Origin: Nitrospirota bacterium
GTDB lineage: Bacteria > Nitrospirota > Nitrospiria > SBBL01 > JAADHI01
DNA length: 38,918 nucleotides
Reading direction: 5' to 3'
Assembly: GCA_029261195.1 (NCBI GenBank)
Contig: JAJDBU010000048.1
Span: 69,814 to 108,731 of the forward strand
This document shows, piece after piece, positions 6,929 to 38,668 of the stretch. The notes under the pieces are model-generated. The model had not been told where the DNA came from. It worked only from the letters and a program-made list of their open reading frames with translations, and searched no databases. Within the stretch, counting starts at the first letter, position 1, and the number at the start of each line of letters is the position of its first letter. Made by a program: the position numbers and the translations under genes.

Positions 6929-6977
6929 TCGACGATTTAAAGCTAATTAAAAATGAAACAACAACCTGAAAGGAGAA

Positions 6978-7295
6978 ATGATGAAAGAAGTAAAAGCCTA
7001 TATCAAACCGCACAGACTTTCACCCGTGACCTTGGCCTTACACGAGATTGAAGGACTCAGCGGAATGAGCGTAATTGACGCACGGGGTTATGGCCGAAGC
7101 CGGACACAAGTGGGAGACTACGTCCCGCACGTCAAGATAGAGGTGGTCTGCCTGGACAATCTTGTCGATACCGTGGTCACGACCATTGAAAAAGCCGCCT
7201 ACACAGGTTTACGCGGGGACGGGAAGATCTATGTCAGCCCTGTCGAAAACGCCGTGCGGATCGAAACCGGGGAACACGGCGAGAGCGCGGTGTAA
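6978..7295 (+). CDS. PII-like signalling protein with shortened T-loop
   Basis: 105-residue PII-superfamily protein (104 if the second ATG at 6981 is used; AGGAG lies at 6971-6975). The nucleotide-binding B-loop and C-terminal signature are intact ('TGLRGDGKIYV', then 'RIETGE'), so ATP/ADP binding is likely. The T-loop is clearly shorter than in GlnB/GlnK: only about ten residues separate the 'GYGRS' strand from 'VKIEVV', and the segment bearing the uridylylated tyrosine is absent. Canonical nitrogen signalling by uridylylation is therefore unlikely. It lies 49 bases after the pump, so it probably senses energy state or metal for this efflux operon. PII variants beside metal RND genes are a known non-canonical group; the partner here is not shown by the sequence. 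Confidence 0.88.
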   Translation: MMKEVKAYIKPHRLSPVTLALHEIEGLSGMSVIDARGYGRSRTQVGDYVPHVKIEVVCLDNLVDTVVTTIEKAAYTGLRGDGKIYVSPVENAVRIETGEHGESAV

Positions 7296-7414
7296 GACCG
7301 GAAGCACAATAATGCATCAATATGCAGGTCGATTCATTTCGGCGTTCTAGGCGATCTACTTCTTTTTTGAGAATCAATTTTATAATAGATTCAACACAAA
7401 TAAAGGAGGATATC

Positions 7415-8269: not shown

Positions 8270-8275
8270 AAAAGG

Positions 8276-10183
8276 GTGGAAGAAGTAGACGACACACACT
8301 TTAACGGAACCTGGTGGCGATGGCCTCCCTTGCGCAACGGTTTGATTGCCGGTTTGCTGGCAAGCATGGCTTTTGCCTTGGCACACCTGGGGTTTATTGC
8401 GGAGGCCTCAGAAAATATTCTGTACATGCTGTCCTTGCCGATTGGCGGGTATTTTTGGGTCTGGAAAGGTATTGGAGAACTCGTTTCGGAAGGAGAAATC
8501 GGCATTGACCTCCTGATGATCGGCGCGGCCACAGGTTCTGCAATCCTCGGTCTTTGGGATGAAGCGGCTTTTCTTGTTTTTCTCTATGCAACGGCGGAAG
8601 GTTTGGAAGAATATACTTATGCCCGTACCAGATCGGCCATTCGTGCTCTGCTCGACTTGGCCCCGAAAGAAGCCTGTCTACTCAAAGGGGGGCAGGAAAT
8701 CATTGTACCCGCCGAGCAACTAGCGCCCGGAGATCTATTTCGCGTGCGTCCGGGTCAGTCCATCCCGACAGACGGTCTCATACGAGGCGGCACATCGAGT
8801 CTTGATGAATCTCAAATTACCGGTGAATCCGTACCCGTCGATAAAGGTTTGGGCATGAAGGTTGTTGCCGGTTCACTCAATCGCCAGGGATCTCTGGAGG
8901 TGGAAGCCACTGCTGCCTTTACCGACAATACACTGAACAAGATGATCCACCTCGTCGAGTCAGCCCAGGAACAGAAGGGAAAGGCGCAGCAATGGATCGA
9001 CCGCTTTGGTCGCCGCTACAGTCCGGCAGTATTGGGGATTGCATTCTTCATGGTACTCATCCCCTGGTTTTTTGGCTTGAATCTTTCTGAATGGGCTTTG
9101 CGTGCCGTCGTCCTACTTGTGGCAGCAGCACCCTGCGCATTGATCATGTCGATGCCGGTCGCGATGGCTGCGGGAATTGGATCGGCGGGGAAACGTGGAA
9201 TCCTGATCAAAGGTGGTGTGCATCTGGAACATTTGGGTGTGATTCGTGTGGTGGCTTTTGACAAAACGGGTACCCTAACAAAGGGGGTGCACGAAGTCAG
9301 CGCCCTGGTAACACTGAAAGGAAATGAAGCAGAATGGCTCTCCGTGGCAGCCGGATTGGAAGATCATTCCGAGCATCCCCTTGGAAAAGCGATTCTCAAG
9401 AAGGCAAAGTCATCGGGAAGTTCACCGGCAAAAATCCTTCAGTTTGAGGCATTGACCGGCGCGGGCGCAAAAGGCCTTTTAGCTGGGGTGACTTGGTATA
9501 TCGGAAACCCCGATCTTTTTTTGGACATGGGAACCGCTTTAGATTCCGTTTCCGAACAGATTAAGACCCTTCAATCATTGGGAAATACCGTTGTCCTCAT
9601 TGGGACTAAAATGGAGCTGCATGGCATGATCGGGTTACAGGATCAAGTTCGGACCGGGGCATCTGATGCGATAGCCAAGCTTCATCAAATGGGCATAAAA
9701 ACCGCTATGCTGACTGGGGATAACCTGCTAACTGCAAATGCCGTCGCGAACTCACTCGGCATTGATGATGTCCGGGCAGGATTGAAACCAGAAGAAAAAG
9801 TGCAGGCGATCAAAGACCTTGAGAAACAAAGTGGAGCGGTTTTAATGGTCGGCGATGGCGTCAATGATGCGCCTGCCCTGGCCGCCGCGACCTGCGGCGC
9901 GTCGATGGGCGCAGCGGGAAGTGATGCCGCAATTGAGGCCGCAGATGTCGCCTTGATGGCAGATGACCTCGCCAAAATCAAAGAAGCCCTTTGTTTGGGT
10001 CGCGTAGCCCGCCGAATTAGCAAACAAAACATTATTTTTTCTCTGATTGTTCTGGGCTTGCTGATCCCCGCGGCGCTCGGCGGTGTTTTGAGTGTCGCCG
10101 CCGCGGTCTTTTTTCATGAAACCAGCGAACTCATGGCGGTTGCTAATGGCTTAAGGGTGGCGCGGTTCGTGAAACCAAGGTAA
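8276..10183 (+). CDS. P1B-type heavy-metal-transporting ATPase with APC metal motif
   Basis: 635-residue P-type ATPase exporting a metal ion across the inner membrane. The start is GTG 8276, six bases after the previous stop; the ribosome-binding site is weak, suggesting coupling. There is no N-terminal CxxC heavy-metal domain. The actuator motif TGES is at about 182-185, the membrane motif is APC (285-287) where copper and zinc pumps have CPC, the phosphorylated Asp is in DKTGT (329), the P1B-specific His-Pro is in SEHPLG (about 367-368), and GDGVNDAPAL is in the hinge. All residues needed for catalysis are present. P1B enzymes with SPC or related variants often handle Co, Fe or Zn, but I cannot assign the metal. 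It complements the RND pump by moving cytosolic metal to the periplasm. Confidence 0.92.
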   Translation: MEEVDDTHFNGTWWRWPPLRNGLIAGLLASMAFALAHLGFIAEASENILYMLSLPIGGYFWVWKGIGELVSEGEIGIDLLMIGAATGSAILGLWDEAAFLVFLYATAEGLEEYTYARTRSAIRALLDLAPKEACLLKGGQEIIVPAEQLAPGDLFRVRPGQSIPTDGLIRGGTSSLDESQITGESVPVDKGLGMKVVAGSLNRQGSLEVEATAAFTDNTLNKMIHLVESAQEQKGKAQQWIDRFGRRYSPAVLGIAFFMVLIPWFFGLNLSEWALRAVVLLVAAAPCALIMSMPVAMAAGIGSAGKRGILIKGGVHLEHLGVIRVVAFDKTGTLTKGVHEVSALVTLKGNEAEWLSVAAGLEDHSEHPLGKAILKKAKSSGSSPAKILQFEALTGAGAKGLLAGVTWYIGNPDLFLDMGTALDSVSEQIKTLQSLGNTVVLIGTKMELHGMIGLQDQVRTGASDAIAKLHQMGIKTAMLTGDNLLTANAVANSLGIDDVRAGLKPEEKVQAIKDLEKQSGAVLMVGDGVNDAPALAAATCGASMGAAGSDAAIEAADVALMADDLAKIKEALCLGRVARRISKQNIIFSLIVLGLLIPAALGGVLSVAAAVFFHETSELMAVANGLRVARFVKPR

Positions 10184-10206
10184 GACAAAAACAAAGTGAG
10201 AATATA

Positions 10207-10341
10207 ATGAAGAGATTGACCATATACTTCATGGGATTGTTGATGTTTTCCACCATGACCTCAGGTTGTACTTCTTTAGGTCCAGTATTTTACCATGAGC
10301 CGCGAAGATGCCAACAGAATTCATCCTCACAGCCGTCATAA
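10207..10341 (+). CDS. Small putative lipoprotein (44 aa), possibly the 5' part of a frameshifted gene
   Basis: An ATG at 10207 opens a 44-residue frame ending in TAA at 10339-10341. It begins MKRLTIYF, continues with a hydrophobic core and reaches a lipobox (TSGC, Cys at about residue 21), a convincing lipoprotein signal, then runs only about 23 polar residues. It overlaps the next ORF, which starts at 10295 in another frame. The small size, the overlap and the fact that a signal peptide is followed by so little mature protein suggest that this is the start of the downstream ORF separated by a one-base shift near 10300-10340. It could also be a real short lipoprotein. Confidence 0.5.
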   Translation: MKRLTIYFMGLLMFSTMTSGCTSLGPVFYHEPRRCQQNSSSQPS

Positions 10342-10801
10342 AGACACACATAAAAGATTATCCCTTGAGGAAAGTCGGACGATTAACAAGCTCTACGGAG
10401 AGGAGATTAGTCAAGAAGGGAACTTTATAGTTTATTACAATGCCCGGCATATGAAGCCTTTGTATCCGCTCACAAAGGGTAATATCTTCCTGGTACATAC
10501 AAATGAGGAAAAGAATAAATCATTGACACTTCTGGTCTGTACAACAAAAGGGCGAGTTGATGAGGTGATACTCAAGAGCAATTTCGTTGTCGGAGGCAAG
10601 CGGGTGATACCTGCTGAATTTCTGGAGCAATTTATCGGGCGGTCTCTAGGAGATTCATGGGAAATGGCAAAAGTCCCTTCAGATTTCCTTTCATTGCCGA
10701 ATAAGATTCGACCAATTTCGGGTTATCCAAAAATTTCCGAAGAGCTTGCTAAGGCGATGCGCAGGGTATTGGTTTTGGCAAGTGTTTTGGAGATTAAATA
10801 A
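10295..10801 (+). CDS. Hypothetical protein, possibly FMN-binding-like; may be a frameshifted lipoprotein body
   Basis: 168 residues from ATG 10295 with no clear ribosome-binding site. The frame is closed by a TAG at 10277-10279, so it cannot extend far upstream. The C-terminal half ('RVDEVILKSNFVVGGKRV', then 'EFLEQFIGRSLGDSW', then 'PISGYPKISEELAKAM') resembles the layout of FMN-binding domains of secreted redox proteins, where an 'SGAT' threonine carries FMN; here the site reads SGYPK, so covalent flavin is unlikely. That match is by eye and weak. The preceding lipoprotein signal in the other frame suggests an exported protein whose gene has shifted frame. It lies 112 bases after the ATPase and just left of IS debris, so decay is plausible. 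Confidence 0.5.
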   Translation: MSREDANRIHPHSRHKDTHKRLSLEESRTINKLYGEEISQEGNFIVYYNARHMKPLYPLTKGNIFLVHTNEEKNKSLTLLVCTTKGRVDEVILKSNFVVGGKRVIPAEFLEQFIGRSLGDSWEMAKVPSDFLSLPNKIRPISGYPKISEELAKAMRRVLVLASVLEIK

Positions 10802-10844
10802 CGATCATTTCAGGTGAAACGACTCATTCTATTGATATGCCGCA

Positions 10845-11457
10845 GAAATGTGTTATTATTTTAAGAAAAGTAACACGATATGCAAATAGACGGAACAGAT
10901 TGAACGCCATGTTTTACTTGCCAGGCTTGGACTTCGTTGATAACAGCATCCGTCACCCGAGAAATGAGGGTGTGTGAAACCTCTGCTCCGTACATCTCTT
11001 TAAAGGCTGCGGCAATATCTCTGCTGGTCATCCCTCGAGCAAAGAGGGCCAATATCTGATCATCAAATTCAGTAAATCGGGTTTGACCTTTCTTGACCAC
11101 TTGAGGCTCAAAAGACCCCTTTCTGTCCCGGAGTGTCGCAATTCCGATTTCTCCAAAATCCCCTTTGAGCCTTTTTCTAGAATAGCCGTTGCGGCTATTC
11201 CCTGAGTTGCGACCTGTACTCGCGTAGGGCTCATAGCCCAGAGATTCTTCCATTTCGCCTCCTAGAGCCGCCTCAACCGACAACTTCAACAAGGCTCGAC
11301 TTAGGGTAGATAGGTCTTTTTCTGCTTTTAAGCCCTTGGCCAATTCTTTGGCAAGTGCCTCTATTTTTTTCTCGTCCTGCATACTGTCCATCCCCTCTCT
11401 TCAAATTCTTGAAGAATAGTATTCAATCAACAGTTACACAATTTATTTTACAGGCTC
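10845..11457 (-). mobile_element. Truncated or internally deleted IS256-type insertion sequence
   Basis: The transposase fragment is flanked on its 5' side by a plausible IS256-type terminal sequence: read on the - strand from about 11457 it is GAGCCTGTAAAA, then an AATTGTGTAAC block, which fits the family's ends. The left end is less certain. A weak inverted match (AACACATTTCTG read on the - strand, near 10843-10856) could be the other terminus of an internally deleted copy. The element separates the island's last ORF from the RND remnant and probably caused or followed the deletion of that gene's 5' part. Confidence 0.55.
10921..11382 (-). pseudogene. IS256-family transposase, N-terminal fragment
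   Basis: About 154 residues match the N-terminal DNA-binding part of Mutator/IS256-type transposases: 'LLKLSVEAALGGEMEESLGY', the Asn/Gly/Ser-rich 'GRNSGNSRNGYSRKR' and 'FDDQILALFARGMTSRDI'. The best start is ATG 11382, as GAGGGG lies at a suitable distance; an ATG at 11391 abuts it. After 'NEVQAWQ' (about 10921) the reading frame diverges and stops at 10861. Full-length enzymes are about 400 residues, and none of the catalytic DDE domain is present. Transposition by this copy is not possible. Confidence 0.85.
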
Positions 11458-11932
11458 TTTGCTGATTGTTTTTCTCCTGCTTTTCAGCAGTTTTAACTCC
11501 CTCAAAAATTCCCTGCTGATTCTACTGAATATTCCGCTTGCCCTGGTTGGCGGCGTCATTGCGCTTTGGATGACGGGACAAAACCTGTCTGTTCCAGCAT
11601 TGGTTGGTTTTATCGCGCTGTTTGGTATTGCATTGGAAAACGGCATGGTCTTAGTGAGCTATCTGAACGAACTACTGAAAAAAGGCATTGAGATAGACGA
11701 TGCCGCAATTCAAGGGGCCTGCCGAAGACTGCGACCTGTCTTGATGACAGCGATTACGACCGCCTTGGGTTTAATGCCTCTGCTTTATTCTTCGGGTACG
11801 GGGAGCGAAGTGCAACGCCCACTTGCAACGGTGGTCGTCGGCGGATTGGTGACTTCGACAATATTAACCTTGTTGGTGGTGCCGGCGCTTTATAAGTGGT
11901 TTGCTGTCAAACCGGAGAACACGACGGTTTGA
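11453..11932 (+). pseudogene. 3' remnant of a second CzcA/CusA-type RND pump gene
   Basis: About 155 residues align without gaps to the C-terminus of the intact pump at 3827-6928, from 'LLLF' near TM10-11 to 'ALYKWFAVKP', with most residues identical (for example 'GACRRLRPVLMTAITTALGL' in both). About 870 upstream codons are missing, and the homologous part begins within a few bases of the IS256 end, so no start codon or porter domain remains. The substitutions are mostly conservative, showing that the copy was under selection before it was cut. It is evidence for a former second, related efflux operon or a tandem duplication at this place. Confidence 0.9.
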
Positions 11933-12067
11933 AGTGACTCAAGTTTTTCTCCACCGAATACAAATCTAAGACGATAAAAATGATTAGCGGCTACCTTTCA
12001 GGCATAGATCTACATGCTTGTTGGAGTCAGAGCTTTCTTGCCACAACATTCTATTTTTGAGATCGGA

Positions 12068-12691
12068 TCAGAATACGACAGTCCACTGCCGGATCTGCGC
12101 TTTGGAGGCTCCGGCCAAGGCAGACGCGACTGCGACGCCTGCTGCGCCGTTGCTCAGAATCGAGTGAACATGAGATTCTTGAATGCCACCAATGGCATAG
12201 ACTGGGAGGACGACCTTCTTACAAAGAACACCTAGAGACTCAATGCCAAAGGGAAGGCGCTCGGACAGCTTTGTTTCAGTTGCGAAGATCGGCCCGAAGC
12301 CGATGTAATCAACCGCCTTTTTTTCAGCCTCAAGGGCCTCTTCCAGGCTGTGCGTTGATAAGCCGATAATTGCCTGATCTCCCAGTAAGGCTCGGGCTGC
12401 CGACACCGGGAAATCGTCCTGCCCGAGATGCACCCCGTCGGCCTCGACCGCCATTGCGATATCGACCTCATCGTTGATGATCAACTTCACATTGGATTGA
12501 CGGGTCAACAGACGCAAACGCTCGGCGCGTTCATAGATTTGCCCTCTCAAGCCCGATTTATCCCGGTATTGGATCAGACGGACTCCCCCGTCAATTGCCG
12601 CTTGAATGGTCTGAAAAAAGGATCCGGAGTCGTCCCCGCTGCAATCATAAAGGCAAGGGTCTGCTATGAGGTATAGGGCCGGAAAATCCAT
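12068..12691 (-). CDS. thiE: Thiamine-phosphate synthase ThiE
   Basis: 207-residue TIM-barrel enzyme that joins HMP-pyrophosphate and thiazole phosphate to make thiamine monophosphate in the cytosol. Family landmarks are in order: 'LYLIADP' at the start, 'GVRLIQYRDK', 'LIINDEVDIAMAVEADGVHLGQDD' split as NDE...HLGQDD, 'GLSTHS', 'DYIGFGPIFATETK' and 'VYAIGGI'. Length is normal. It is the last gene of the - strand housekeeping run, 17 bases after accC. The stretch between its stop and the RND remnant (11933-12067) holds no gene or clear hairpin. Other thiamine genes are not in the window. Confidence 0.92.
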   Translation of the reverse strand: MDFPALYLIADPCLYDCSGDDSGSFFQTIQAAIDGGVRLIQYRDKSGLRGQIYERAERLRLLTRQSNVKLIINDEVDIAMAVEADGVHLGQDDFPVSAARALLGDQAIIGLSTHSLEEALEAEKKAVDYIGFGPIFATETKLSERLPFGIESLGVLCKKVVLPVYAIGGIQESHVHSILSNGAAGVAVASALAGASKAQIRQWTVVF

Positions 12692-12708
12692 TCTAAACGG
12701 GCAGATTC

Positions 12709-14058
12709 CTAGGACTTCGGTGTCGCGAGGAAGTGATCAAGATAGTTTGTGGAGAAACGTCCTTTGATAAAAGTCGGATCATTAAAGACCCGTTTGTGAA
12801 GGGGGATGCTGGTTTGAATCCCTTCGATGACAAATTCAGAGAGGGCGCCTTTCATCTTTGCAATTGCCCCGTCACGAGAGCGTGAATGGACGATGAGTTT
12901 TGCAATGAGGGAGTCATAATAAGGACTGATGACGCTCCCCATATAACTGGCAGAATCAACACGAATACCCGGCCCACCCGGCATGTGAAATGCGCTGATG
13001 GTTCCGGGAGAGGGGGTGAAGTTTTCCGGGGACTCCGCATTGATTCGACACTCAAAGCTGTGGCCTAAGAGTCTTACCTGGCTCTGTTTGACAGAGAGCG
13101 ATTGTCCCGCTGCAATTCGGATCTGTTCTTTCACCAGGTCAATGGCGGTCACGCACTCGGTCACCGGGTGCTCAACCTGGATACGGGTATTCATCTCGAT
13201 GAAATAAAAATTGTGATCTTTGTCGAGTAAAAATTCAACGGTTCCGGCATTGACATAGTGCGAAGCATTCACTGCTGCGGTGGCCGCCTTGCCGAGTTCC
13301 CTGCGCAGTTTCTCATCAACGACGGGAGAGGGGGATTCTTCAATCAGTTTCTGGTGTCGGCGTTGAATGGAACAATCTCGCTCCGGCATGTAGATCATCT
13401 TCCCTTTGTCGTCAGCCAGGACCTGTATTTCGATATGACGGGGCTCCGTGAAGAAGCGCTCCATGTAGACGCCGTCGTTTCCGAATCCTGCTTTCGCTTC
13501 CATTTTTGCCGCCTGAAAGGCATTTTGGAATTCGCCGTCTTCATGAACCACCCGCATGCCGCGACCACCTCCGCCAGCAACGGCCTTAATGATAATCGGG
13601 TAGCCGATTCTCCGTGCAACCTTAAGCCCTTCTTCCACATCCGTAATGACACCGTCGCTGCCTGGAATAATCGGCACGCCGTTTTTTTCCATCAGCTCTC
13701 TGGCCTTCGCCTTGTCTCCCATTAAGGTAATACACTCAGGCGCAGGGCCGATAAACTTGATGCCGGCCGATTCACAGGCATCCGCGAAGTGGCTGTTCTC
13801 GGCCAAAAACCCGTAACCGGGATGGATGGCCTCGGCGCCGGTAATCTCTGCGGCACTTAAGATATTCGGAATGTTTCGGTAGGAAAGGGCGGCATCGGCC
13901 GGACCGACACAAACGGCTTCGTCGGCAAAGCGCACATGAAGGGATGCCGCATCCGGCTCTGAATAGATGGCGACACTCTGCACGCCTAATTCACGGCAGG
14001 CACGAACAATACGGAGCGCAATTTCTCCGCGATTTGCGATTAGTACTTTACGAAACAT
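12709..14058 (-). CDS. accC: Biotin carboxylase subunit of acetyl-CoA carboxylase
   Basis: 449 residues, exactly the usual length. It carboxylates the biotin of AccB with ATP and bicarbonate, the first step of fatty-acid synthesis. It starts '[17 protein letters not shown]', then shows the ATP-grasp Gly-rich loop 'GGGGRGMR', '[18 protein letters not shown]' and '[12 protein letters not shown]', all diagnostic and intact. ATG 14058 lies five bases after the accB stop, so the two are cotranscribed. Pyruvate carboxylase subunits are similar, but the adjacent accB fits acetyl-CoA carboxylase. Confidence 0.97.
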
Positions 14059-26839: not shown

Positions 26840-29800
26840 TCATCCACCACCCGCCTCGCAGGCGTTACCGATGCCATCGCCATCCGTGTCGAGCTGGTCC
26901 GGATTCGGAGTGAAGGGACAATTATCAAGGTCATCTCGAATACCGTCGTTATCATTATCGATGATCCGAAGTTCGCAGGCATCTCCAATCCGGTTACCAT
27001 TGGTGTCAATTTGATCCGGATTAGTGATGTTAGGACAGTTATCCTCTGTGTTGGGAACGCCGTCTCCGTCCGTATCTCTCGCTAACGCAATGTTTGGCGC
27101 AGTGAGTTTCACTGTGTAGCTACTGTGCGGGTCAAGACGAATTTCAAAGCCTCCGGTGGAAAGGCTTGAAATACAGTCTGTGCTTGGCACACAACTGTCT
27201 TCCTTTTTTTCTCCCAGAAAGGAAAACTCAACATTGCCCACAAAGGAGCAGATGATCCCCAATGTCCTACATGTACGCCCTTTTACCACAACCGATGATG
27301 ACTTTCCGTCATCGACCTTCAGACGAACACTTGAAAGGCTTCCCTGCTCTGAGAGGTTTACCAGCACATTGCCGGCCATGGGGCGAGTCGAACTTTCCGG
27401 GTCCGAGCGGATCGTCGTCATCTCAAGTGGCAGGTCAAAAATGATAAAACGGCCGGTACTCCCCGTACGATCAAGGTTGGGATCAATGCTTAAAGCGTTG
27501 TTGAAGTAGCGGACCGATCCGACGCTTTTTCCTTCGCTGTTACGCGCTTCAATCACAATACCATCTGCAAGGCGATCGCTACTTGCCAGAAGACTTAAGT
27601 TGTCGGATAAGGTATTCACAACAACAAAATCGTCTTCTCCATCCTGATTAAAATCACCCGCAACGAAACTTTTCGGCCCATTGCCTACGGGAAAAACAGA
27701 AGAGACGGTGTTAAATAGACCATTACTCTGCCCGAGCAGGACGACAAGCTGCTGGGTTCCTCCATTGAGGACTGCCAGATCTTTCCGCCCATCTTCATCA
27801 AAATCGAGCAGGATCATCGCCTGAGGAAAGCTGATGGCAGCGTTGAAGGGAAAGGGACAATTGTCGATACTCGCTGTTTCCGGATTGCAATCGACCTTGG
27901 TAAAACTGCCATTGCCATCCCCTAAAAAGGTCGAAATATCATTCGACCCGGCATTGCTCACAACAAGATCTAGATGACCATCCTTGTTGATATCTTCGGT
28001 AAGAATGGCACTGGGATCAGCTCCGGCGGATAAGGTGGTAATTGGTGTTGCCCGGCTTAGAAAAAAGGTAATGTCAGGTGAACTGGAACCGACAACAGCA
28101 AGATCAAGCCTCCCGTCCCCATCAAAGTCACCCGCTGCGATGGCGCGGGGAGTGGAAGCGACCTCACAGGGCGTAGATGCGCAGGGAGAGCGGGTAAGTG
28201 AAAAAGCGCCGTTTCCGTCCCCGATCATAACGGTGATGCGGCCAGGGCTAAAGCTTTCGTTAGCGACCGCTAAATCGACGCTACCATCCCGGTCAAGATC
28301 CTCGGCTAACACAAAAACAGGCCTTTCCAGGCCGCCAGTCGTTAGATCGGGCAGCGGAGTAAAACGGCCATCTCCTTCGCCGATGAGCAACGAAAGACTG
28401 TTATGCCCGTAATTGGCAACAACGAGGTCACCTCGGCCGTCATTATTAAAATCGGCAAGGGCAATCGATCGTGGGTCCGCACCAACAGGAATAACGGCAT
28501 GGGGGGAAAATCCGCCCCCCACCTGGCCGAGAAATATTTCAACTTGTCCCACAGGCCCTTTAACATTCACCACTGCAATGTCCAGAAAACTGTCGGTATT
28601 AAAAAACCCGGCGACGATTGACTGGGGGGCAGTCCCACTTAATACCGGGGCTGTGACCGCATCAAGCCGACTTTCAATCACTTTTCCAGCCACGAGTCCT
28701 TTTTCTAAATCAAGGCCCAGACCAGAGGCTTCCGCCAAGGCCTGAAGCTCTGCTTGACTTGTTATAAAAAGGGACTCACCGCCATGGGGTTTCAGTGTGG
28801 TTTTGACCCGAGTATTCAAAGTGCTCACTGCACCGTTTTTCTCAGCCTTGACAACGAAGGTCGCATTGCTGGGGAAGGGAACGCCCTCGGACGGTACTTT
28901 AAAGTCTTCCGATGAAAAGCCGCCCTGCTCTCCCAGGATCGAGAGACTGACGCCGGATACGTCGTTACCGCGCAAGTCGGTCACCGTACCGGAGACAGAA
29001 ACATTCACAGGCACATGATTGACCGTGATGGAGGCAAGGGTAACGCCATCGTTGTAGATTCTGGAGATGATGTTTCCTGAGTCATCTGAGGAGTTGGTTT
29101 TAATCATAATCAAACCGGATGGCAGACCCTTGATGAGATAGCGACCGTCTTCCGAGCTCTCATTCAGAGTTGGGTCAACAATGCCTTGTTTATTGAAATA
29201 AAAAACCCTTCCGACAGCATCTCCAGTTCCAATTGCATTATTGCTACTGTCGACAACCTGAGTCACAAGTAGTTTGACTTGGTCGACACGTCCACCCACA
29301 CGGCGATTACGCACACGCCCCAGGATCGCTCCAAGGCCATTCCTTTCCCCGATCAAAGTACTCGAAATCACCTGAAGTTCCTTCACCAGGTCGTCGCTTC
29401 CGGTGATTATTTCTTGATAGCTTGGCACATGACCCACAGCATCGACACGAGTGATAAAGCGGCTGTTGGCCAATACGGGCGTAACATCGTTTACATTGGC
29501 TGATAGTGGAATGGCATAAGCGCCGGTAGCACTGGCGTTTGGAATAATGTCGGCAACTCCAAGCAGGTCGATTGAGGCACCATCGATCTTCGCTCCATTT
29601 TCATCGACTACATTGCCCGACAGGGCGAGGGTGCTGGATTGATCTGCTCGCTGGATAGGAAAAAGCTCAACTTGCTCCAAGCTGACTCCCTCCGAAAAAA
29701 CCCTCGTTCGGAGACTACCGGACGATTTGTCTTTTCCTGTAGGGCCACTGCTATCGACGATTGCGTCGGCCTTGAGAAAAATATCTCCAGGCGGCAGGTT

Positions 29801-30916
29801 GAAGATCAGGAAGCCTCCATTGTTCGTGGTCAGGGACAGGCAGCAATGGGGACGCGCTTTTCCATCAAAATAAATAATTTTACCGACTTCGGCGCCAGAG
29901 GCATCAGTCGCAAAGATTTTCGCATTTTCCTTTTTTCCTCCTGATTCGATTGCCGATCCCAAAATAATTCCGCGATTTGCAAGCAATGTGACGCCGGCTT
30001 CGCTAGCAAGCGATGCGATCTCTTGAATGGAAATGCCATTCAGGTTGTGAACAATTTCCTGGGTAATCGTTCCCGCCTGAATCAGACTGAGATCGCTCCT
30101 TCTAAATTGATAGGTATCATGGTGGGCGGCAGCCGTGACTTTGACTAGAAAAAGACTCTCCGAGCCGAACCCGCTGCCAGCATAAGCACCCGTTTCGCTT
30201 GATGTTAGTTTGCCGCCTAAGCCTGAAAAGATGAGTTCTGCCAGCGCAATTGGAGTGACATCGTCCCGTTCCCGGACTAGACCGTTCATTCCGACACTCG
30301 GAATGGCAACCGGAAAGACGGACATCTTGACCATGGAGACACCACCGCCGAAGGAGGTTAATTGTGTGCCGCCTCGACCTCCCCGAACCGCTTTGAGGTA
30401 ATATTCACCGGGGGGAACATTCAAAGCGGTGAAACTCCCCGAAGGGGCGGTACCGTTCACGTTAATAAACTCTGGCACACCGTTAATGCTGTTATAAATA
30501 ATAGGACCTGCGATTTCCCCGGAAGCATCTTTTAACCCTGCCTTGATGTCACCCTTTGTATCAAGAAGGATATTTCCGGTGCTGTCGGTACTTCCAATGG
30601 CGACATTTCCCACGCCAGTTCCAGTGAGACCCACGACAATGCCGCTAATCACGCCGTTTTTCGGGTCCTGAGCCGGGCTACTGGATGCGACGACAAGGTT
30701 GGTCACATCTGCAGCTGAGATGATCTGAAGATTCGCCTCAAGCCCGGAGATTTCTTCCGTGCCGGTTTTGAAATCGAAAGTATGCGTGGTGACGAAGGGA
30801 ACCTCCGTAATCCCGGAAAAGTTTTCTCCAACCGGAAACGGATCAGAATTACAGCCGTAAAATAAGCGGGCAAAACAGAAAAGGAGGAATATTTTTTTTA
30901 TAATGACTCTCTTCAA
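26840..30916 (-). CDS. Giant surface lipoprotein: four repeat modules, FG-GAP beta-propeller and TSP3-like calcium repeats
   Basis: 1358 residues; TTG start at 30916 (no ATG nearby). The N-terminus ends in a lipobox (LFYGC, Cys22). Four diverged modules follow, each with a helix, a V/I-x-G-x-V strand, an I/V-x-YF(N) motif and a G-R/G-F/Y-x-I-x-x-LPPG loop, as in carboxypeptidase-regulatory/Ig-like domains: about 63-290, 295-510, 512-715 and 717-1275. The fourth is interrupted at about 763-1112 by seven FG-GAP repeats (for example 'FNNDGRGDLVVAN', 'FDGDGRLDLAVV'), the number of a closed propeller. Residues 1281-1355 are thrombospondin type-3-like repeats ('DTDGDGVPNTEDNCP') that bind calcium. 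It lies 21 bases after the TPR-barrel gene. Adhesion or ligand-binding at the cell surface is likely; nothing catalytic is seen. Confidence 0.85.
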   Translation of the reverse strand: MKRVIIKKIFLLFCFARLFYGCNSDPFPVGENFSGITEVPFVTTHTFDFKTGTEEISGLEANLQIISAADVTNLVVASSSPAQDPKNGVISGIVVGLTGTGVGNVAIGSTDSTGNILLDTKGDIKAGLKDASGEIAGPIIYNSINGVPEFINVNGTAPSGSFTALNVPPGEYYLKAVRGGRGGTQLTSFGGGVSMVKMSVFPVAIPSVGMNGLVRERDDVTPIALAELIFSGLGGKLTSSETGAYAGSGFGSESLFLVKVTAAAHHDTYQFRRSDLSLIQAGTITQEIVHNLNGISIQEIASLASEAGVTLLANRGIILGSAIESGGKKENAKIFATDASGAEVGKIIYFDGKARPHCCLSLTTNNGGFLIFNLPPGDIFLKADAIVDSSGPTGKDKSSGSLRTRVFSEGVSLEQVELFPIQRADQSSTLALSGNVVDENGAKIDGASIDLLGVADIIPNASATGAYAIPLSANVNDVTPVLANSRFITRVDAVGHVPSYQEIITGSDDLVKELQVISSTLIGERNGLGAILGRVRNRRVGGRVDQVKLLVTQVVDSSNNAIGTGDAVGRVFYFNKQGIVDPTLNESSEDGRYLIKGLPSGLIMIKTNSSDDSGNIISRIYNDGVTLASITVNHVPVNVSVSGTVTDLRGNDVSGVSLSILGEQGGFSSEDFKVPSEGVPFPSNATFVVKAEKNGAVSTLNTRVKTTLKPHGGESLFITSQAELQALAEASGLGLDLEKGLVAGKVIESRLDAVTAPVLSGTAPQSIVAGFFNTDSFLDIAVVNVKGPVGQVEIFLGQVGGGFSPHAVIPVGADPRSIALADFNNDGRGDLVVANYGHNSLSLLIGEGDGRFTPLPDLTTGGLERPVFVLAEDLDRDGSVDLAVANESFSPGRITVMIGDGNGAFSLTRSPCASTPCEVASTPRAIAAGDFDGDGRLDLAVVGSSSPDITFFLSRATPITTLSAGADPSAILTEDINKDGHLDLVVSNAGSNDISTFLGDGNGSFTKVDCNPETASIDNCPFPFNAAISFPQAMILLDFDEDGRKDLAVLNGGTQQLVVLLGQSNGLFNTVSSVFPVGNGPKSFVAGDFNQDGEDDFVVVNTLSDNLSLLASSDRLADGIVIEARNSEGKSVGSVRYFNNALSIDPNLDRTGSTGRFIIFDLPLEMTTIRSDPESSTRPMAGNVLVNLSEQGSLSSVRLKVDDGKSSSVVVKGRTCRTLGIICSFVGNVEFSFLGEKKEDSCVPSTDCISSLSTGGFEIRLDPHSSYTVKLTAPNIALARDTDGDGVPNTEDNCPNITNPDQIDTNGNRIGDACELRIIDNDNDGIRDDLDNCPFTPNPDQLDTDGDGIGNACEAGGG

Positions 30917-30937: not shown

Positions 30938-33900
30938 CTAAAAACTCCGGATGATCTCCAAGTAAAATCGGTCACTGTCTTTGAAAAATCCGATAAAATC
31001 AAACTCGCCAACCCGCGCTCCGCGATCACCGACAAAAAAGTCAGCGCCGAAGCGAAACTTAACATTGTCTGAAATGCGTGCCTCCACAACTGGGCGTAAT
31101 AAAATATCATCTTCATTGACAAAATACAATATTAGAGATTGAACAACAATCCGCTCATTCATAAAGGCTTTCCTCAGAAAGAGAGAGGCAACTGTATCAA
31201 CCCGGTCTTGAAGGATGATTTCGGTCCAATTGAGAATATATTGCTGTAGAAATGACAACGACAGATCAGTCCCCCAATACGTCACATCAAGACCGACGGC
31301 ATACTTCATATAATCCCTCTGCGCCTCTCCGAGGGTGGGATTTGAAGTCCCCACCGTTAGGAGCGTGCCAAAAAATTTATCGAAGACATAAGCGTATTCA
31401 GCATTAAGCACAAAGCGGCCAATACTCTTGGAAAGCATTGTTCCAAATATCGTGATTCGCCTCTGCTCCGGGAAAAAGTCAGGCGCCCTGATCGCCGCTC
31501 CGAATCCTCCCCCGGAACTGCCATCCAGTGACCGGAAGCTTGTCGGAAAATCGTCCCAGGTATAAAATGCGGTCATCCCAAGCTCAAGACCGTTGAAATT
31601 CTCCATCATACGAAAAGCGACTTCACTGTTATCGAAAGCCTCCAGATTGACTGATAGTTCGGAATCAATGAAAGATTGGGTTGCCTTAAAGCCCGGAAGG
31701 ATTTCAAACTGCTCGAATTCAGAGCCTTTCGGGGCCGGTCGATGTGGGACAACCTCCGGAATCCAAATGAATTCAAATCGACTATCCCCGTAAAAATAGT
31801 TAGTGCGAAGCATCATGAGGGGAATAAAACGGTCATCGGTTTCCCGAAGAATAAATTCTGAGAAATCAAAAGGATTAACCTCATCGGTTACGCGTGCACC
31901 TGCGACAACTCCCCAGCGAACAATTTGACGTCCAATACGAAAATCGACATTTTGAAAGTTAATATCTAAAAAAACCTCTCTGAATTCAAATCCATGCCGA
32001 TTGATGTCGACCGACCTTGAATTCTCAATCTCAATGGAGGCGACTTCTTCAGAGCTAGGGTTTTGAGGGAGTTGCGTCAAGATTGTATTTGGAAAACGTC
32101 TGGGGCTGATTGTATCGATATCAACCAGGTCGTAGATTGCATCGTAGAAACTGCGTGTCCGGACTGTGGCAGAGATTTGGCGTGAGAGGGCGTATCGGCT
32201 GTTCAGGCGAAAGAGAAAGAGTGATTTTGTAAAAGTAACCGGTTCCTTGAACCTGTAGGCCGTTTCATTTTTAAGAACACCATTTAGTCTGAGGTTTTCC
32301 CGAACCGATGAAGGGAGCAAACGCTCTACAATAGATTTTTCCTCATCCTGGTCCCAGCCGACCCAGCGTTCAAAAGACGTCTTTCCAGAGAGACCTTCCC
32401 CGAAATGAAAACGGAGCATCAACCTCGCTTCGAAACCATCTAAACGAAGTTTCAGAAACTTCGCCCGGCCCCCCTCAACAACTTGGTCGGCTGCACAGTC
32501 GATAGTGGAAAGGGTGTCGCCCTGTACCGATGTATCATCTCTCAGCCTACAGGGATTGTCATTGACTGCCGGAACACCTGTTAAATCTGCGAAATCAGCG
32601 GGAAATTCCCGCTTCACCTCAAGCTTCGCAGCCTCAGCAATACGGTAATTAAGATCCAGACCAAGCGAGAGCCATGACCGGATAAAAAAAGCACCTCCAA
32701 AGCCAAAATGCGTTGAAAAGCTCGTCGAACGCGCCTCTATTGAGCCCATTGACGCAAAGGCATTGCCAATCGGAGGATTCGTCACCTTCACAAGCGAGTC
32801 AATTGTCAGATTAGAAAAGGTCCCGCCGAACAAACCGATATTGAGATAAAAGCGTCCGACACCCGGATCATTGAAGAAGGCGTATCGCCAAGTCAATAAT
32901 AGCTGATTGATCGCCAGATTATAACGCGTGCTTCTCGGGACGGGAATCGCATCTTCGGTCGGAGAAAGCAGGAGTGGTACTGTATCGTGGGCAACGGTCT
33001 TGTTTTGCCATTCTGAAATAGAAAACACGAGGGCATGACGTGGCTTCATTTCCCACTCAATCTCAATGCCATTGCTCAAGCTTCCTCCGATAGGCTCTGT
33101 TTTAAGATTTTTCTCATCCGACAAAAAAGTAGGGTTTGAAGGAAGAAGGTGGTTCGGATCCTGAATGATCACATGCTTAGGATCTCCGATGATCGCATTT
33201 AAATTTTTAAGCGAGGGTTCAAAATATCCGACGGTCAGTGCGACTGAAATCTGTTTTTGAAAATTTCTCCATCGAGGGTAGGGACGTTTAAGGTCCATCG
33301 CCGCACTTGCGCCAAAGATAAAAAGTTCGCGATCATAGTCTCCGAGGGAAGCGACATGTCCGTCAGCGAGAGAACGGGTCTGTCCTGCCCCGGAGGACCC
33401 GTCCTGTCCGGCATTTAGGCTAAGCGGATCGATCGCTGCTGCCGTGGGCAGATTCGATCGGTTTTTCTGTTTCACGTAGCCGAGAAAGAGGGAAACTCCC
33501 GGCTCGGGTCGATAGTTCAAGCCCACATTGAAATTTGTAAACTCATTCCGCCGCCGTTGTATCTCTCCCCTGCTCAAGGAAAGTGAGTCGGGATGACGAA
33601 ATCTTATATAGCGCTTTGTCAGACCGACAGTTCCACTTAAGCTCGGCAAGATAGGACGAGAATAGTTGATGGAAAACACTTGAGCGCGTCTCCGCTGATC
33701 ATTTGCATCGATGTCATTGTCAAGGAAGCTGTAGCTGAGTCCGATCCGTCCGAGGTTGTTTTGATTGAGTTTAAGGTTTTGAAATAGGGAAAGACGTAGC
33801 GTTCTTTTGTGTGAGTTGAAAATCGAATTGTTGGAAAGTTTTAATCGCTGGAGATCAAAATGCAGGTTCGTCTCACTCGGGAAAGCCCTGAACTTGATCA

Positions 33901-35686
33901 CCTCCGCCCTGTAGGTTGTACTCGAAAACGATTTTTCATTCGGCTCTCGAACCCCACCGCTCCGTCCTGTGTCAAAATCAAGACCCTGTACCAACATATA
34001 GTTCGGAAGATTCCAAAGTGAAACAAGGGAAAGCCCTTCGTTAATAAAAAAAATCTGAGTACGATGAAACAGCTTGGTGTTCAGTGCGAGTCGAAGTGAG
34101 ACCCGGAAACGCTCTTTCTTTTTAAGAAAATAAATCAAACCGAGCGAAACACTCGATTCAATTTCAGGGACATGCTGCTCTGTCCGATTGCTATTGCTAT
34201 CATAGGTAAGGGACGTACTTGAAAAATCAACGTGGAAACGTTTTTCATAAAAATCGATTCTGCCTTGGGCAAGCTTTTTCCCCTTGCTGTCTTCTTTTCC
34301 GGGAAAATCAGTGACCTGGTGGTAGGCCTCTAAGGCTTCGTCTATCCGATTCTGTTTTTCATAAAGACTGGCAAGGGCGAGTCTGGGTCTTTCGTGGTAG
34401 GGGTACATACGTGCCGCTTCTTGAAAGGCTTCCAGGGCAGGCACGACCTTTCCTTGGCGTTCATAAGCCTCACCCAGCCCAATTCGACTCAGAAGGTGAG
34501 TTGTGTTGATCTGGATCACTCTTTTAAATCGTCTCTCAGCGAGGCTTAACTCACCCCTGAGAAGCGCAATCAGGCCCAAACTGTAATGGGCGTAGACCTG
34601 TTCCGGCAGAAATACTACAGCCTGAAGGAATTCCGTCCTTGCATTTTTAATGTTTCCCTTTTCTAAGTGCTCAGTTCCCTTTTTTAAGAGAGTTTGTACA
34701 GCTTTGGCAATCTCCTCCGTTTCACCGATCTGCCTCAGTTTTTGCGATGCGAGTTTTCCATCTCCTTCATCTTGATTTTTTGCCTCCGAACGAACGGTTT
34801 TATACTCCAGAATTGCGCGGCCGACTTCACCCTTTGTTTCGTATATCTGGCCTAAGAACAGACGTGCAGATAAAAAATCAGGTTTCTTGTTGAGCGCGGC
34901 CTTCAAAAAATCGGAGGCAGTATCAAGTTGTTTTTTCACCTCATAAATTCTTCCGAGATTATAAAGAGCAAAGGCATTGTCCGGATCCATTAAAAGGGAT
35001 TTCTGAAATACATCTTCCGCCCGCTTAAAATCACCAGCGTTTAGAGCTTCAATCCCTTCATCAAAAAACTGCTTGCCTTTCTTTAATAACAATTCTATCC
35101 GTTTTTGCGCTTGCTTGCTTTCCGCCGTTTTCCCATTGAGTGAAGTAACGGTTTGGTAGTGCTTCCTTGCCTTTGAAATATTTCCTTCAGTTTCGTAGAG
35201 AATGCCTAGAAGGAGATAGCCTCTTGGATAATCCGGTTTAATGGCGATAACACGTTCAAAGGCCCCCTTTGCCTTTTCATTAAGACCTTTAGCCGCATAA
35301 GCCTGACCAAGTAAGAGTTGGCCTACCAGTAATTTTTTGTCGATCCTGACGGCTGATTCAAAGGCTTCAATCGCAAGATTTAGATGATTTTTCCGGGTAT
35401 AGATCACACCAAGACTCAGGTATGAAGGAGTATGGTTACTATTTTTTGAGAGAACAGACCGGAACATTTCGAGTGCACCGTCGAGGTCGGCCTGCTCCAT
35501 CCGTCTACGGCCTTCCTCAAAATACTCCCTTTCGGTCGACGGGACAGGGACTTGGCCGTAGGTCAGAGTGGGAACACCGAATCTAAAAAAAAATAAGATC
35601 AGTGTCAGAAGAAATAGTTTCAATTGGAAAAAGTGAGCTGGATTTTTCCGCAGTTTGTAACGTTTTATTTGGAACGAGTCCGGCAC
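30938..35686 (-). CDS. TPR protein fused to two outer-membrane beta-barrels (second is DUF1302-type)
   Basis: 1582 residues; GTG 35686, 22 bases after the predicted transcription start. Layout: signal peptide (1-44, cut after TYGQ); about eight to ten TPRs (54-460), for example 'PDYPRGYLLLGILYETEGNI' and 'PDNAFALYNLGRIYEVKKQL'; a first barrel (about 482-1095) of alternating aromatic strands that ends in RFHF, a terminal beta-signal; a linker; then a DUF1302-like barrel (about 1127-1582) with 'FREVFLDINFQNVDFRIGRQ', 'RWGVV' and 'VNPFD', ending in Phe. TPRs would face the periplasm. TPR-plus-barrel resembles polysaccharide exporters such as BcsC/PelB, but two successive barrels in one chain is unusual. 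It is followed immediately by the giant lipoprotein gene. Confidence 0.85.
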   Translation of the reverse strand: MPDSFQIKRYKLRKNPAHFFQLKLFLLTLILFFFRFGVPTLTYGQVPVPSTEREYFEEGRRRMEQADLDGALEMFRSVLSKNSNHTPSYLSLGVIYTRKNHLNLAIEAFESAVRIDKKLLVGQLLLGQAYAAKGLNEKAKGAFERVIAIKPDYPRGYLLLGILYETEGNISKARKHYQTVTSLNGKTAESKQAQKRIELLLKKGKQFFDEGIEALNAGDFKRAEDVFQKSLLMDPDNAFALYNLGRIYEVKKQLDTASDFLKAALNKKPDFLSARLFLGQIYETKGEVGRAILEYKTVRSEAKNQDEGDGKLASQKLRQIGETEEIAKAVQTLLKKGTEHLEKGNIKNARTEFLQAVVFLPEQVYAHYSLGLIALLRGELSLAERRFKRVIQINTTHLLSRIGLGEAYERQGKVVPALEAFQEAARMYPYHERPRLALASLYEKQNRIDEALEAYHQVTDFPGKEDSKGKKLAQGRIDFYEKRFHVDFSSTSLTYDSNSNRTEQHVPEIESSVSLGLIYFLKKKERFRVSLRLALNTKLFHRTQIFFINEGLSLVSLWNLPNYMLVQGLDFDTGRSGGVREPNEKSFSSTTYRAEVIKFRAFPSETNLHFDLQRLKLSNNSIFNSHKRTLRLSLFQNLKLNQNNLGRIGLSYSFLDNDIDANDQRRRAQVFSINYSRPILPSLSGTVGLTKRYIRFRHPDSLSLSRGEIQRRRNEFTNFNVGLNYRPEPGVSLFLGYVKQKNRSNLPTAAAIDPLSLNAGQDGSSGAGQTRSLADGHVASLGDYDRELFIFGASAAMDLKRPYPRWRNFQKQISVALTVGYFEPSLKNLNAIIGDPKHVIIQDPNHLLPSNPTFLSDEKNLKTEPIGGSLSNGIEIEWEMKPRHALVFSISEWQNKTVAHDTVPLLLSPTEDAIPVPRSTRYNLAINQLLLTWRYAFFNDPGVGRFYLNIGLFGGTFSNLTIDSLVKVTNPPIGNAFASMGSIEARSTSFSTHFGFGGAFFIRSWLSLGLDLNYRIAEAAKLEVKREFPADFADLTGVPAVNDNPCRLRDDTSVQGDTLSTIDCAADQVVEGGRAKFLKLRLDGFEARLMLRFHFGEGLSGKTSFERWVGWDQDEEKSIVERLLPSSVRENLRLNGVLKNETAYRFKEPVTFTKSLFLFRLNSRYALSRQISATVRTRSFYDAIYDLVDIDTISPRRFPNTILTQLPQNPSSEEVASIEIENSRSVDINRHGFEFREVFLDINFQNVDFRIGRQIVRWGVVAGARVTDEVNPFDFSEFILRETDDRFIPLMMLRTNYFYGDSRFEFIWIPEVVPHRPAPKGSEFEQFEILPGFKATQSFIDSELSVNLEAFDNSEVAFRMMENFNGLELGMTAFYTWDDFPTSFRSLDGSSGGGFGAAIRAPDFFPEQRRITIFGTMLSKSIGRFVLNAEYAYVFDKFFGTLLTVGTSNPTLGEAQRDYMKYAVGLDVTYWGTDLSLSFLQQYILNWTEIILQDRVDTVASLFLRKAFMNERIVVQSLILYFVNEDDILLRPVVEARISDNVKFRFGADFFVGDRGARVGEFDFIGFFKDSDRFYLEIIRSF

Positions 35687-35845: not shown

Positions 35846-36691
35846 TCATCGACCGCCGCCACCACCGATCTCTTGACCATCATCTCCGACGGACTGGCCT
35901 GCACCCGTCGGGGCAGACGCTTCGGGAAAATTCCCCACATTGTAAACAAAGGAACCATCGGTCACTAAATCAAAGCCACCTTCCTTGATGGATTGGCTCC
36001 AAAAGATTGTGCCACCTATGCCACCAATCCGCGGAGCTGCCGGATTCGTGCTGTGGGCCTCAAACTCAACAATCTGAACCTCATTTCCTGCGCTTGGGAT
36101 ACCCGAAAAATTAAGGCCTTCGGTGAAAGTGGTTTGCTTCATGGTCTGCGCAAAGGTAGAGGTTCCATCCGCAAAGTACTCAAAATTATTCGAGAACTCC
36201 ATCTTTACACCCGATTTTCCGACCGCCTCTGCAACAACTGGATTCGTCGGTGATACTGCCTCACCCGTATTGAGGAAGTTCATCACTGGAAGCGGCAAAC
36301 TAAAAGTAAATGCACTTGAATCATTGCAATTACTGCCGCAACTTGACTCTGTTGGGATAATCATTCCCTGATCCTCTGGCCGGCTAGACTGCTTGCCTAA
36401 GTCGGCGTCATTGTTTCTCCTGATTTCACCGAACATGCTATTTGTTAAAGCGCCAGCTGTTGTTCCCCCTGCTTCAGATGTTGTATTTACACAGGTAAAA
36501 CATTTATCCGGGTCACCGGCACCGGTTACTGCATTAATCAAATTTGATGGATCAAATCCAAATTCTGAACTCCCTGAAATACTGGTTCCGGTCTCTACAA
36601 CAAAGTTCTGAGCCAAGACTAAATTTCCGGAGAAAAAAATGATCAGCCCGAATCCAGCAATTATGAAGGTTAATTTTTTCATAAATCTCAT
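35846..36691 (-). CDS. Secreted protein of unknown family, paralog B (CFTC/SCGxNC motifs)
   Basis: 281 residues; signal peptide (about 1-27, cut after LVLA, mature start QNF). ATG 36691, with a second in-frame ATG at 36682 (MKKL). No known domain is recognised. It shares a long conserved region with the paralog at 36796: 'QNFVVETGTSISGS', then 'CFTC' (Cys64, Cys67), 'GGTTAGALTNSMFG', 'SCGSNCNDSSAFTFSLPLP' (Cys118, Cys122), 'GVKMEFSN', 'QTTFTEG' and 'QSIKEGGFDL'. The middle and tail differ, and it ends in GGGGGR. All four cysteines are conserved between the copies, which suggests two disulfides or a metal site; with no histidine after CFTC it is not a c-type heme motif. The two genes likely arose by tandem duplication. 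Confidence 0.8.
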   Translation of the reverse strand: MRFMKKLTFIIAGFGLIIFFSGNLVLAQNFVVETGTSISGSSEFGFDPSNLINAVTGAGDPDKCFTCVNTTSEAGGTTAGALTNSMFGEIRRNNDADLGKQSSRPEDQGMIIPTESSCGSNCNDSSAFTFSLPLPVMNFLNTGEAVSPTNPVVAEAVGKSGVKMEFSNNFEYFADGTSTFAQTMKQTTFTEGLNFSGIPSAGNEVQIVEFEAHSTNPAAPRIGGIGGTIFWSQSIKEGGFDLVTDGSFVYNVGNFPEASAPTGAGQSVGDDGQEIGGGGGR

Positions 36692-36795: not shown

Positions 36796-37623
36796 TCAAG
36801 GGATTTGCTGTCCATCAGCTCCTGTCGACTGACCCGAACCGGTGGGTGTTGAGGCTGAGGGAAGAGAACCGGATGTCGGATCGTAGTCAAAATTACCAGA
36901 CGATAGACCCAAATTGAAACCGCCTTCCTCAATACTCTGTAACCAATTAACACTTGCCGTTGCTGTACTGGCACTGACAGATTCCGGACTGGAGCCACTG
37001 GCTTCAAAAGAGACAATTTGAATTTCATTACCACCCATTCCTTCAGTGAAAGTCGTCTGCGACATTGACTGCTCAAATGTCGAGCCATCATTAACGCCAT
37101 CACCATCGACATCTCCAAGGAAGTTAAATGTATTAGAAAATTCCATTTTGACGCCTTTATTCCCTACAGTTTCAGGGGTGCTCGGATTTGTGGTGGCGAC
37201 AAGATCCCCGGTACTGAGGAAGTTTTGGGTAGGAAGCGGGAGACTAAAAGTGAATGCACTAGAATCATTACAGTTAGTACCGCAACTCGCTGCCTGGGGG
37301 ATGAGCATGCCTTGATTCTGCGCGTGAAATGACTTGTCACCGAGGTCAGCCTCGGCATTTGGCCTGATTTTTCCAAACATACTGTTTGTCAAGGCCCCGG
37401 CAGTCGTTCCTCCGGCATTCGGGTTTTTGCAGGTAAAACACCTTGTTGCGTCGCCGGTACCGTCTATCGCATTAATCAATCTTTCCGGATTAAATCCAAA
37501 TTCCGTACTCCCTGATATGCTGGTTCCGGTCTCTACAACAAAGTTCTGAGCCACGGCATTACCACCGACTAAGAATATGGAAAGCCCTATGCTCGCCGCA
37601 GTGAAGGCAATGATCCTTTTCAT
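36796..37623 (-). CDS. Secreted protein of unknown family, paralog A (CFTC/SCGxNC motifs)
   Basis: 275 residues; ATG 37623 with GGGGGAG about nine bases upstream, a strong ribosome-binding site. Signal peptide about 1-25 (cut after NAVA), mature start QNFVVETGT as in paralog B. Conserved cysteines are Cys62/Cys65 (CFTC) and Cys114/Cys118 (SCGTNC). A short insert, 'DVDGDGVNDGS', looks like a calcium-binding loop and is absent from B. The C-terminus is rich in Ser, Gly and Thr. Low complexity in the tail and high Gly/Ser/Thr content suit an exported or surface protein. It is the first of the pair, after its own promoter. I recognise no family and assign no function. Confidence 0.8.
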   Translation of the reverse strand: MKRIIAFTAASIGLSIFLVGGNAVAQNFVVETGTSISGSTEFGFNPERLINAIDGTGDATRCFTCKNPNAGGTTAGALTNSMFGKIRPNAEADLGDKSFHAQNQGMLIPQAASCGTNCNDSSAFTFSLPLPTQNFLSTGDLVATTNPSTPETVGNKGVKMEFSNTFNFLGDVDGDGVNDGSTFEQSMSQTTFTEGMGGNEIQIVSFEASGSSPESVSASTATASVNWLQSIEEGGFNLGLSSGNFDYDPTSGSLPSASTPTGSGQSTGADGQQIP

Positions 37624-37786: not shown

Positions 37787-38668
37787 TTATCTGCGCCCCC
37801 CTCGAACAAGCATACGCTCTGAAAAGTCAGCATCGACAAGCCCTGTGTTGTTTTTAACCTCACTAATGTCAAAGATTGTTTTATGTTTTGTCTGAACATT
37901 CATGATTTCCGAATTTTCCCAAACAAGCACCTCCCCGACCTTTTGCCACTTGATGTGTTGGATTTTGAGAGGTTTATTATTACGATCATAAAACTCGACC
38001 TTGCGGGCAACCCAATTTTTTTTAGAAATAAAAAACAGCTTCTTTCCATACGGGCTGTCTTTTTCTTTTGGGACACTTTCTACTACATAGCAGGTTTCGC
38101 CCAAGCTCCGGCATTTCCCAGATCCCGCATGGAGCAAATGGTGTTCATCTTCATCCAGCCGTCTCGCTCCCATATCGGCGAATGTCAAATCCGAACCCAT
38201 AAAGGAATCATGCTGATCGCGCACACTCATCCTGCGTACACTCCTTAGGGTCGGCAGATAAAGCCAAAGATCGTCAGGCTTGCCTTCGACAGCATAATCC
38301 CAGATTAAAAACCCTGTCCCTTTTTGATCTGGAGGAAATTCGGTGAAAAAGACACTTTTACTGTCGAGTCCGTTCTTCCCTCCATAATGTTTGTGCAGGC
38401 GCAGGGTTTCAATCTTCCTTTTATTGCCTTGAGCGTCAATGAGGATCATCGTTACTAGAGAGCTTTGGTCCATTGTCATGTTAACGGTCTCAAGTTTTTC
38501 CATGATCTCAAGCGCTGTCAGTCTGTTATCTTCGTCTGAACTGATTACGATATGCGTAGAGTGTTCTGAGTTTTTCTTGAGAGTTACTTTTTCTGTTGTG
38601 GAACACCCACTACTAACAAGGGAAAAGAAAACAAAACAAAGGACAAAATCCGACATGTTTCTTAACAT
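37787..38668 (-). CDS. LolA-like outer-membrane lipoprotein-sorting (TP_0789-type) lipoprotein
   Basis: 293 residues; ATG 38668 with TAGGA a suitable distance upstream (a second ATG at 38656 is possible). The lipobox is SSGC (about Cys22). The family is shown by 'FTEFPPDQKGTGFLIWDYAV', 'DLWLYLPTLRSVRRMS', 'DSFMGSDLTFADMGARRLDE' and 'WVARKVEFYDRNNKPLKI': an open beta-barrel that carries lipophilic cargo across the periplasm. Such genes commonly sit beside MMPL/RND-type lipid transporters and DUF1302 barrel genes; a DUF1302-type barrel is indeed downstream here, while no MMPL gene is in the window. It is the first of the five-gene envelope block, running right to left. Confidence 0.82.
   Translation of the reverse strand: MLRNMSDFVLCFVFFSLVSSGCSTTEKVTLKKNSEHSTHIVISSDEDNRLTALEIMEKLETVNMTMDQSSLVTMILIDAQGNKRKIETLRLHKHYGGKNGLDSKSVFFTEFPPDQKGTGFLIWDYAVEGKPDDLWLYLPTLRSVRRMSVRDQHDSFMGSDLTFADMGARRLDEDEHHLLHAGSGKCRSLGETCYVVESVPKEKDSPYGKKLFFISKKNWVARKVEFYDRNNKPLKIQHIKWQKVGEVLVWENSEIMNVQTKHKTIFDISEVKNNTGLVDADFSERMLVRGGRR

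Follow-up and report, generated by a model that had tools for sequence, protein, structure and literature searches.

A probable fusion, arisen once in one Nitrospirota family, of three outer-membrane barrel proteins that are separate in relatives and may serve in export

An uninterrupted frame of 1582 codons and its neighbours

The window analysed here, a stretch of 38,918 nucleotides whose end is the end of contig C43 of the source genome (3.04 Mb in 77 contigs), carries on its minus strand at positions 30938-35686 a gene for a signal peptide, a TPR domain and three predicted outer-membrane barrels. The gene has a GTG start and 1582 codons without an internal stop, as the initial annotation had stated, and the chance of an open frame this long arising from base composition alone is about 5e-38. 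Full-length homologues with 45-52% identity were found in three other genomes of the same family (G001, G002 and G003). In addition, the copy in G007 leaves one contig at residue 830 and resumes on another from residue 784, with a nearly identical peptide on both pieces, so that this gene is interrupted only by contig ends. Among the 396 Nitrospirota genomes searched, only the four intact cases pass E 1e-125. An assembly chimera was ruled out by the gene order, which is common to five genomes. An open frame of 1654 aa listed for G013, together with similar values elsewhere, was rejected as a further fusion because stops are present between the genes. Short matches to the start and the end of the fused protein were also seen in G005 (G005:C42:6721-7401 and G005:C46:9-338), which possibly represent a further fused gene in pieces.

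Read from its sequence, the N-terminus (residues 1-44, 35555-35686, minus strand) is a putative signal peptide region with a positive start, a hydrophobic run and a likely cut near LTYG-Q. The TPR domain covers residues 51-465 (34292-35536, minus strand; Pfam TPR_2 6.7e-36, TPR_16 8.4e-35), in agreement with the repeats first noticed up to about residue 460, and by inference it is periplasmic.

Directly downstream lies a gene on the minus strand (26840-30916) for a putative lipoprotein of 1358 aa with Pfam matches to FG-GAP and, at the C-terminus, to thrombospondin type 3 (TSP3) repeats. In all TPR-barrel/barrel-3 loci examined, whether fused or split, the gene after barrel 3 encodes a homologue of this FG-GAP protein; the N-termini are lipoprotein-like (signal plus Cys) in most, and the TSP3-like tail was seen in the fused loci. 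Upstream, also on the minus strand, two paralogous genes encode putative secreted proteins of 281 aa (35846-36691) and 275 aa (36796-37623), which carry CFTC and CGxNCND motifs, have no Pfam match and are possible cargo. A homologue of the first lies upstream in all five fused genomes, and the second matched the same homologues. They are followed by a gene for a LolA-like periplasmic carrier (37787-38668, minus strand; PF17131, 160.6 bits), just past which the contig stops, so that the region farther upstream lies outside our view. The LolA-like gene was rejected as a fixed partner of the fused gene, since a family-wide search showed that it adjoins the fused gene in only three of the five fused genomes and is present in all eight family genomes, including relatives where no fusion was found.

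Three gene families in one chain

BLAST searches with separate parts of the protein led to three independent gene families. All three also occur as stand-alone genes: those related to the TPR domain with barrel 1 encode about 890-1360 aa, those related to residues 806-1105 about 240-480 aa, and those related to the C-terminal part, which are of the DUF1302 type, about 450-565 aa. Homologues of the three families end at about residue 797, at residue 1095 and at residue 1582, respectively. Combined with the predicted strands, these ends place barrel 1 at residues 481-798 (33293-34246), barrel 2 at residues 812-1096 (32399-33253) and barrel 3 at residues 1132-1582 (30941-32293), all on the minus strand. 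The linker between barrels 1 and 2 (residues 799-811, 33254-33292, minus strand) lies between predicted strands, and the stand-alone barrel-1 genes stop at its start; the linker between barrels 2 and 3 (residues 1097-1131, 32294-32398, minus strand) is mostly without strand in the model.

Barrel 2 is 41% identical to a stand-alone gene of the source genome (G000:C55), and barrel 3 is 44-48% identical to stand-alone genes. The C-terminal barrel ending in Phe had been described as DUF1302-like; residues 1162-1436 score 41.9 bits for DUF1302 (PF06980; cut-off 23.2), and the chain indeed ends in Phe. The motif RFHF (residues 1092-1095) had likewise been taken for a true barrel end, which the homologues bear out, since the stand-alone relatives of residues 812-1095 stop there. 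Residues 482-1095 had been read as a single strand region, and here the two-barrel count of the initial annotation fails: this region splits at residues 799-811 into a TPR-linked barrel of 14 strands and a barrel of 8 strands, and the latter occurs elsewhere as a separate gene.

The assignment of barrel 2 as a predicted 8-strand barrel is supported by homology and strand prediction. Its in/out alternation was reached by none of 1000 shuffles, and OMP_b-brl gave weak matches in 6 of 13 members of the family (best 6.7e-5).

All tabulated stand-alone genes end in Phe (barrel-1 16/16, barrel-2 10/10, barrel-3 17/17), and four more stand-alone barrel-2 genes have a terminal Tyr. All five fused proteins have lost the terminal Phe of barrel 1, which is replaced by Met in the window protein and by Thr or Ala in the others, while that of barrel 2 is kept in all five. 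These end signals bear on the possibility that the single chain is cleaved after synthesis, either in the periplasm or as it is assembled, to give three ordinary barrels. The linkers without strand in the model and the occurrence of each module as its own protein in relatives would suit such cleavage; however, the uniform loss of the barrel-1 Phe fits a chain that is not meant to end there, and we consider cleavage improbable.

Structure prediction and fold matches

AlphaFold2 was run on residues 466-1582 with an alignment of 27 rows, in which stand-alone rows of single-barrel fragments favour separate domains and barrel 1 had only fused rows; stand-alone barrel-1 pieces were left out and barrel-2 pieces were trimmed, MAFFT having placed their C-termini onto barrel 3. 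The model (mean pLDDT 70.5) contains groups of 14 strands (residues 481-798), 8 mostly long strands (812-1096) and 18 strands (1132-1581), and because its pTM is 0.59, it does not give the arrangement of the barrels. Structure prediction of this region had been suggested in the initial annotation as a check on two successive barrels; the barrels are indeed predicted as separate, and the strand groups number three instead of two.

VIA-align matched model residues 16-336 with CymA (Z 22.7, 274/312 residues) and model residues 663-1073 with OmpT (Z 23.2, 284/302 residues), which means that chain residues 481-801 and 1128-1538 each align separately with a nearly whole known porin. Barrel 3 aligns with 16-strand porins (best Z 23.2). 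Barrels 1 and 3 fill the fold matches listed for the full-chain model, which thus have no bearing on the fold of barrel 2. When modelled alone, barrel 1 gave a complete 14-strand barrel (pLDDT 82.6, pTM 0.76) that matched CymA (Z 23.0), OmpG (Z 21.2) and the PgaA barrel (Z 16.9). Searched as profiles against solved structures, barrels 1 and 2 returned TPR matches and otherwise none that were significant.

A composite barrel of about 40 strands had been proposed as an alternative to separate pores. Barrels with as many as 36 strands in a single chain have been described (PMC13067283), and the loss of the terminal Phe from barrel 1 would suit this alternative. In the full-chain model, however, the first and last strand groups each match a nearly whole porin, barrel 1 folds alone into a complete barrel, and every module occurs elsewhere as a complete gene, all of which makes one composite barrel very improbable. 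Taken together, the models and the homologues predict three barrels in one chain.

Split parents and origin of the fusion

The initial annotation proposed a fusion of a TPR-barrel gene with a DUF1302 gene and a search for split homologues. Such homologues are present, including a pair in the source genome itself, where a TPR-barrel gene (4652-7882 of locus L038), a DUF1302 gene (7870-9567) and an FG-GAP gene (9568-13494) are consecutive. Therefore, the fusion stands, with three barrels as its partners and not two. The stand-alone barrel-2 gene of the source genome lies on another contig (L039), where it adjoins an MMPL/RND gene. In G004, G011, G013 and Ca. Manganitrophus GAC4, barrel-2, secreted-protein, TPR-barrel and DUF1302 genes occur in this order in one cluster, and the copies in Ca. 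Manganitrophus GAC4 are broken by frameshifts. Since barrel 2 lies outside the TPR-barrel/DUF1302 pair in the split clusters, the fusion needed more than the loss of a stop: barrel 2 had to move between the two. In another genome, G023, the TPR-barrel and DUF1302 genes (L054, 5401-9942) share a reading frame and are separated by just one stop, so that a single mutation would join these two genes.

Maximum-likelihood trees were built for each barrel module with the five fused forms. In each tree the fused forms group as a single clade (support 98/98, 100/100 and 100/100), which fits a single origin of the fusion; the trees do not single out one of the split loci as the parent. Because relatives make the same three pores separately, the protein can be regarded as a traceable natural fusion. 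Taken together, these results favour, with a probability of roughly 0.6, the reading that the gene is a fusion, arisen once within one Nitrospirota family, of three outer-membrane proteins that are separate in relatives, and that its product is likely an exporter.

Comparison with known systems

Chains with more than one outer-membrane barrel were implied at first to be near unheard of; they are in fact a class already described by Solan et al. 2021 (PNAS e2104059118), as related in PMC11494523, PMC8592465 and PMC9603273. The present protein has the at least two outer-membrane barrels per chain that define the class, barrels 1 and 3 by model and barrel 2 by homology and strand prediction. The largest group of the class is GfcD/YjbH, and GfcD has one barrel of 12 strands and another of 13 around a periplasmic domain (PMC11494523). 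In contrast to GfcD, the fused protein has strand groups of 14, 8 and 18, which belong to three different families and follow a TPR domain. The combination of a TPR domain with three unlike barrels whose parents are traceable was not found in the literature examined, the dataset of Solan et al. 2021 lying outside that search.

Slam or type 11 secretion proteins are TPR-containing DUF560 (PF04575) barrels (PMC8406197). The fused protein resembles them in its N-terminal TPRs followed by a 14-strand barrel and in the lipoprotein gene nearby, but it lacks a PF04575 match above the cut-off and carries two more barrels. PF04575 gave no match at E 1 or better in barrel 1 of the window, which was scanned without most of the TPRs; among ten barrel-1 members only one, a trimmed member, matched (E 0.0015, below the cut-off), and stand-alone TPR-barrel proteins showed none among the matches listed at E 0.01 or better. 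Since this sequence test fails, we say that the fused protein may work like Slam, not that it is Slam. The polysaccharide export porins PgaA, BcsC and PelB also combine a TPR domain with a barrel; however, barrel 1 is closer to the 14-strand CymA and OmpG (Z 20-23) than to the barrel of PgaA.

The DUF1302 family points to other partners. In AmeABCD of Castellaniella defragrans, a DUF1302 protein with LolA-type and HAE3 partners has been described as an exporter involved in monoterpene tolerance (PMC6394551), and in P. putida (PP_0765/0766/2018/2019) DUF1302 and DUF1329 proteins, with an efflux transporter, have been linked to growth on Tween 20 (PMC10866462). Both systems join a DUF1302 barrel to a LolA-type carrier (DUF1329/LolA) and an RND pump, whereas in the present protein the DUF1302 barrel shares its chain with two other barrels, and the gene for the pump lies at another place in the genome. 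Compared with an AmeABCD-type cassette, the locus has a DUF1302 barrel and a LolA-like gene but, as far as the contig reaches upstream, no HAE3 RND gene.

Proposed function

On the observed frame, homology, module boundaries, one-clade clustering and neighbourhood, we base a model of how the protein may work. Three neighbouring barrels would span the membrane in a fixed 1:1:1 ratio, with short linkers in the periplasm connecting them, as prediction and homology suggest. The TPR domain would gather cargo in the periplasm, and barrel 1 would pass it outward, as in Slam or other TPR-barrel exporters; the cargo would probably be the adjacent giant lipoprotein or the small upstream secreted proteins. 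Barrels 2 and 3 would probably add a branch for hydrophobes or lipids, since both belong to families with links to HAE3 RND transporters and LolA-like carriers. We infer that the fused protein is most likely a tethered outer-membrane export complex of a Slam-like TPR-barrel and barrels of the hydrophobe-export type. In its full form, our proposal is more tentative: a two-branch export station that couples a TPR-barrel for protein export, in a fixed 1:1:1 ratio, with two barrels of hydrophobe-export families and in which BAM inserts three unlike barrels, the first without a terminal Phe, is possible, and we put it forward with reserve.

The same three-barrel chain might instead serve wholly for the export of hydrophobic small molecules or lipids, with an HAE3 pump, a LolA-like carrier and the barrels as exits, the TPR domain merely holding the complex. 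HAE3-like RND genes lie directly beside barrel 2 in the RND-bearing barrel-2 loci, including that of the source genome, whose RND has its best match to the HAE3 model (E 1.4e-62, below the cut-off of that model). An RND gene adjoins stand-alone barrel-2 genes in the source genome and several other lineages, not in the clusters of the G004/G011/G013 type. The ties of DUF1302 families to HAE3 and LolA-type proteins and the LolA-like gene in the same locus would also suit this explanation. However, no RND gene was found beside the fused gene in the source genome, which has its closest RND genes on other contigs, with the HAE3-like one at G000:C55. The inconstant adjacency of the LolA-like gene, its occurrence in relatives where no fusion was found, and the giant lipoprotein gene that is always next downstream also speak against it, and we regard export of hydrophobes alone as rather unlikely.

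Multi-barrel outer-membrane chains are known mostly from prediction. The fusion is a test case for how cells, through BAM, insert such multi-pore chains, and since its parents still exist unfused in relatives, and in part in the source genome, it can be set directly against them. Such a comparison reveals which internal end signals were kept (barrel 2, RFHF) and which were lost (barrel 1). The fusion itself is evidence that the TPR-barrel, the 8-strand barrel of RND operons and the DUF1302 barrel work together; it connects two families of which little is understood and supplies DUF1302 with partners that can be tested.

In other Nitrospirota (loci L077, L078, L079 and L081), a LolA-like gene, a DUF1302 barrel, an HAE3-like RND and barrel 2 lie in that order in compact clusters, which appear to be a four-gene export cassette. 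A metal efflux cluster of a TolC-like protein, an adaptor, a CusA/CzcA-type RND pump and a heavy-metal P-type ATPase is encoded in the window at positions 288-10183.
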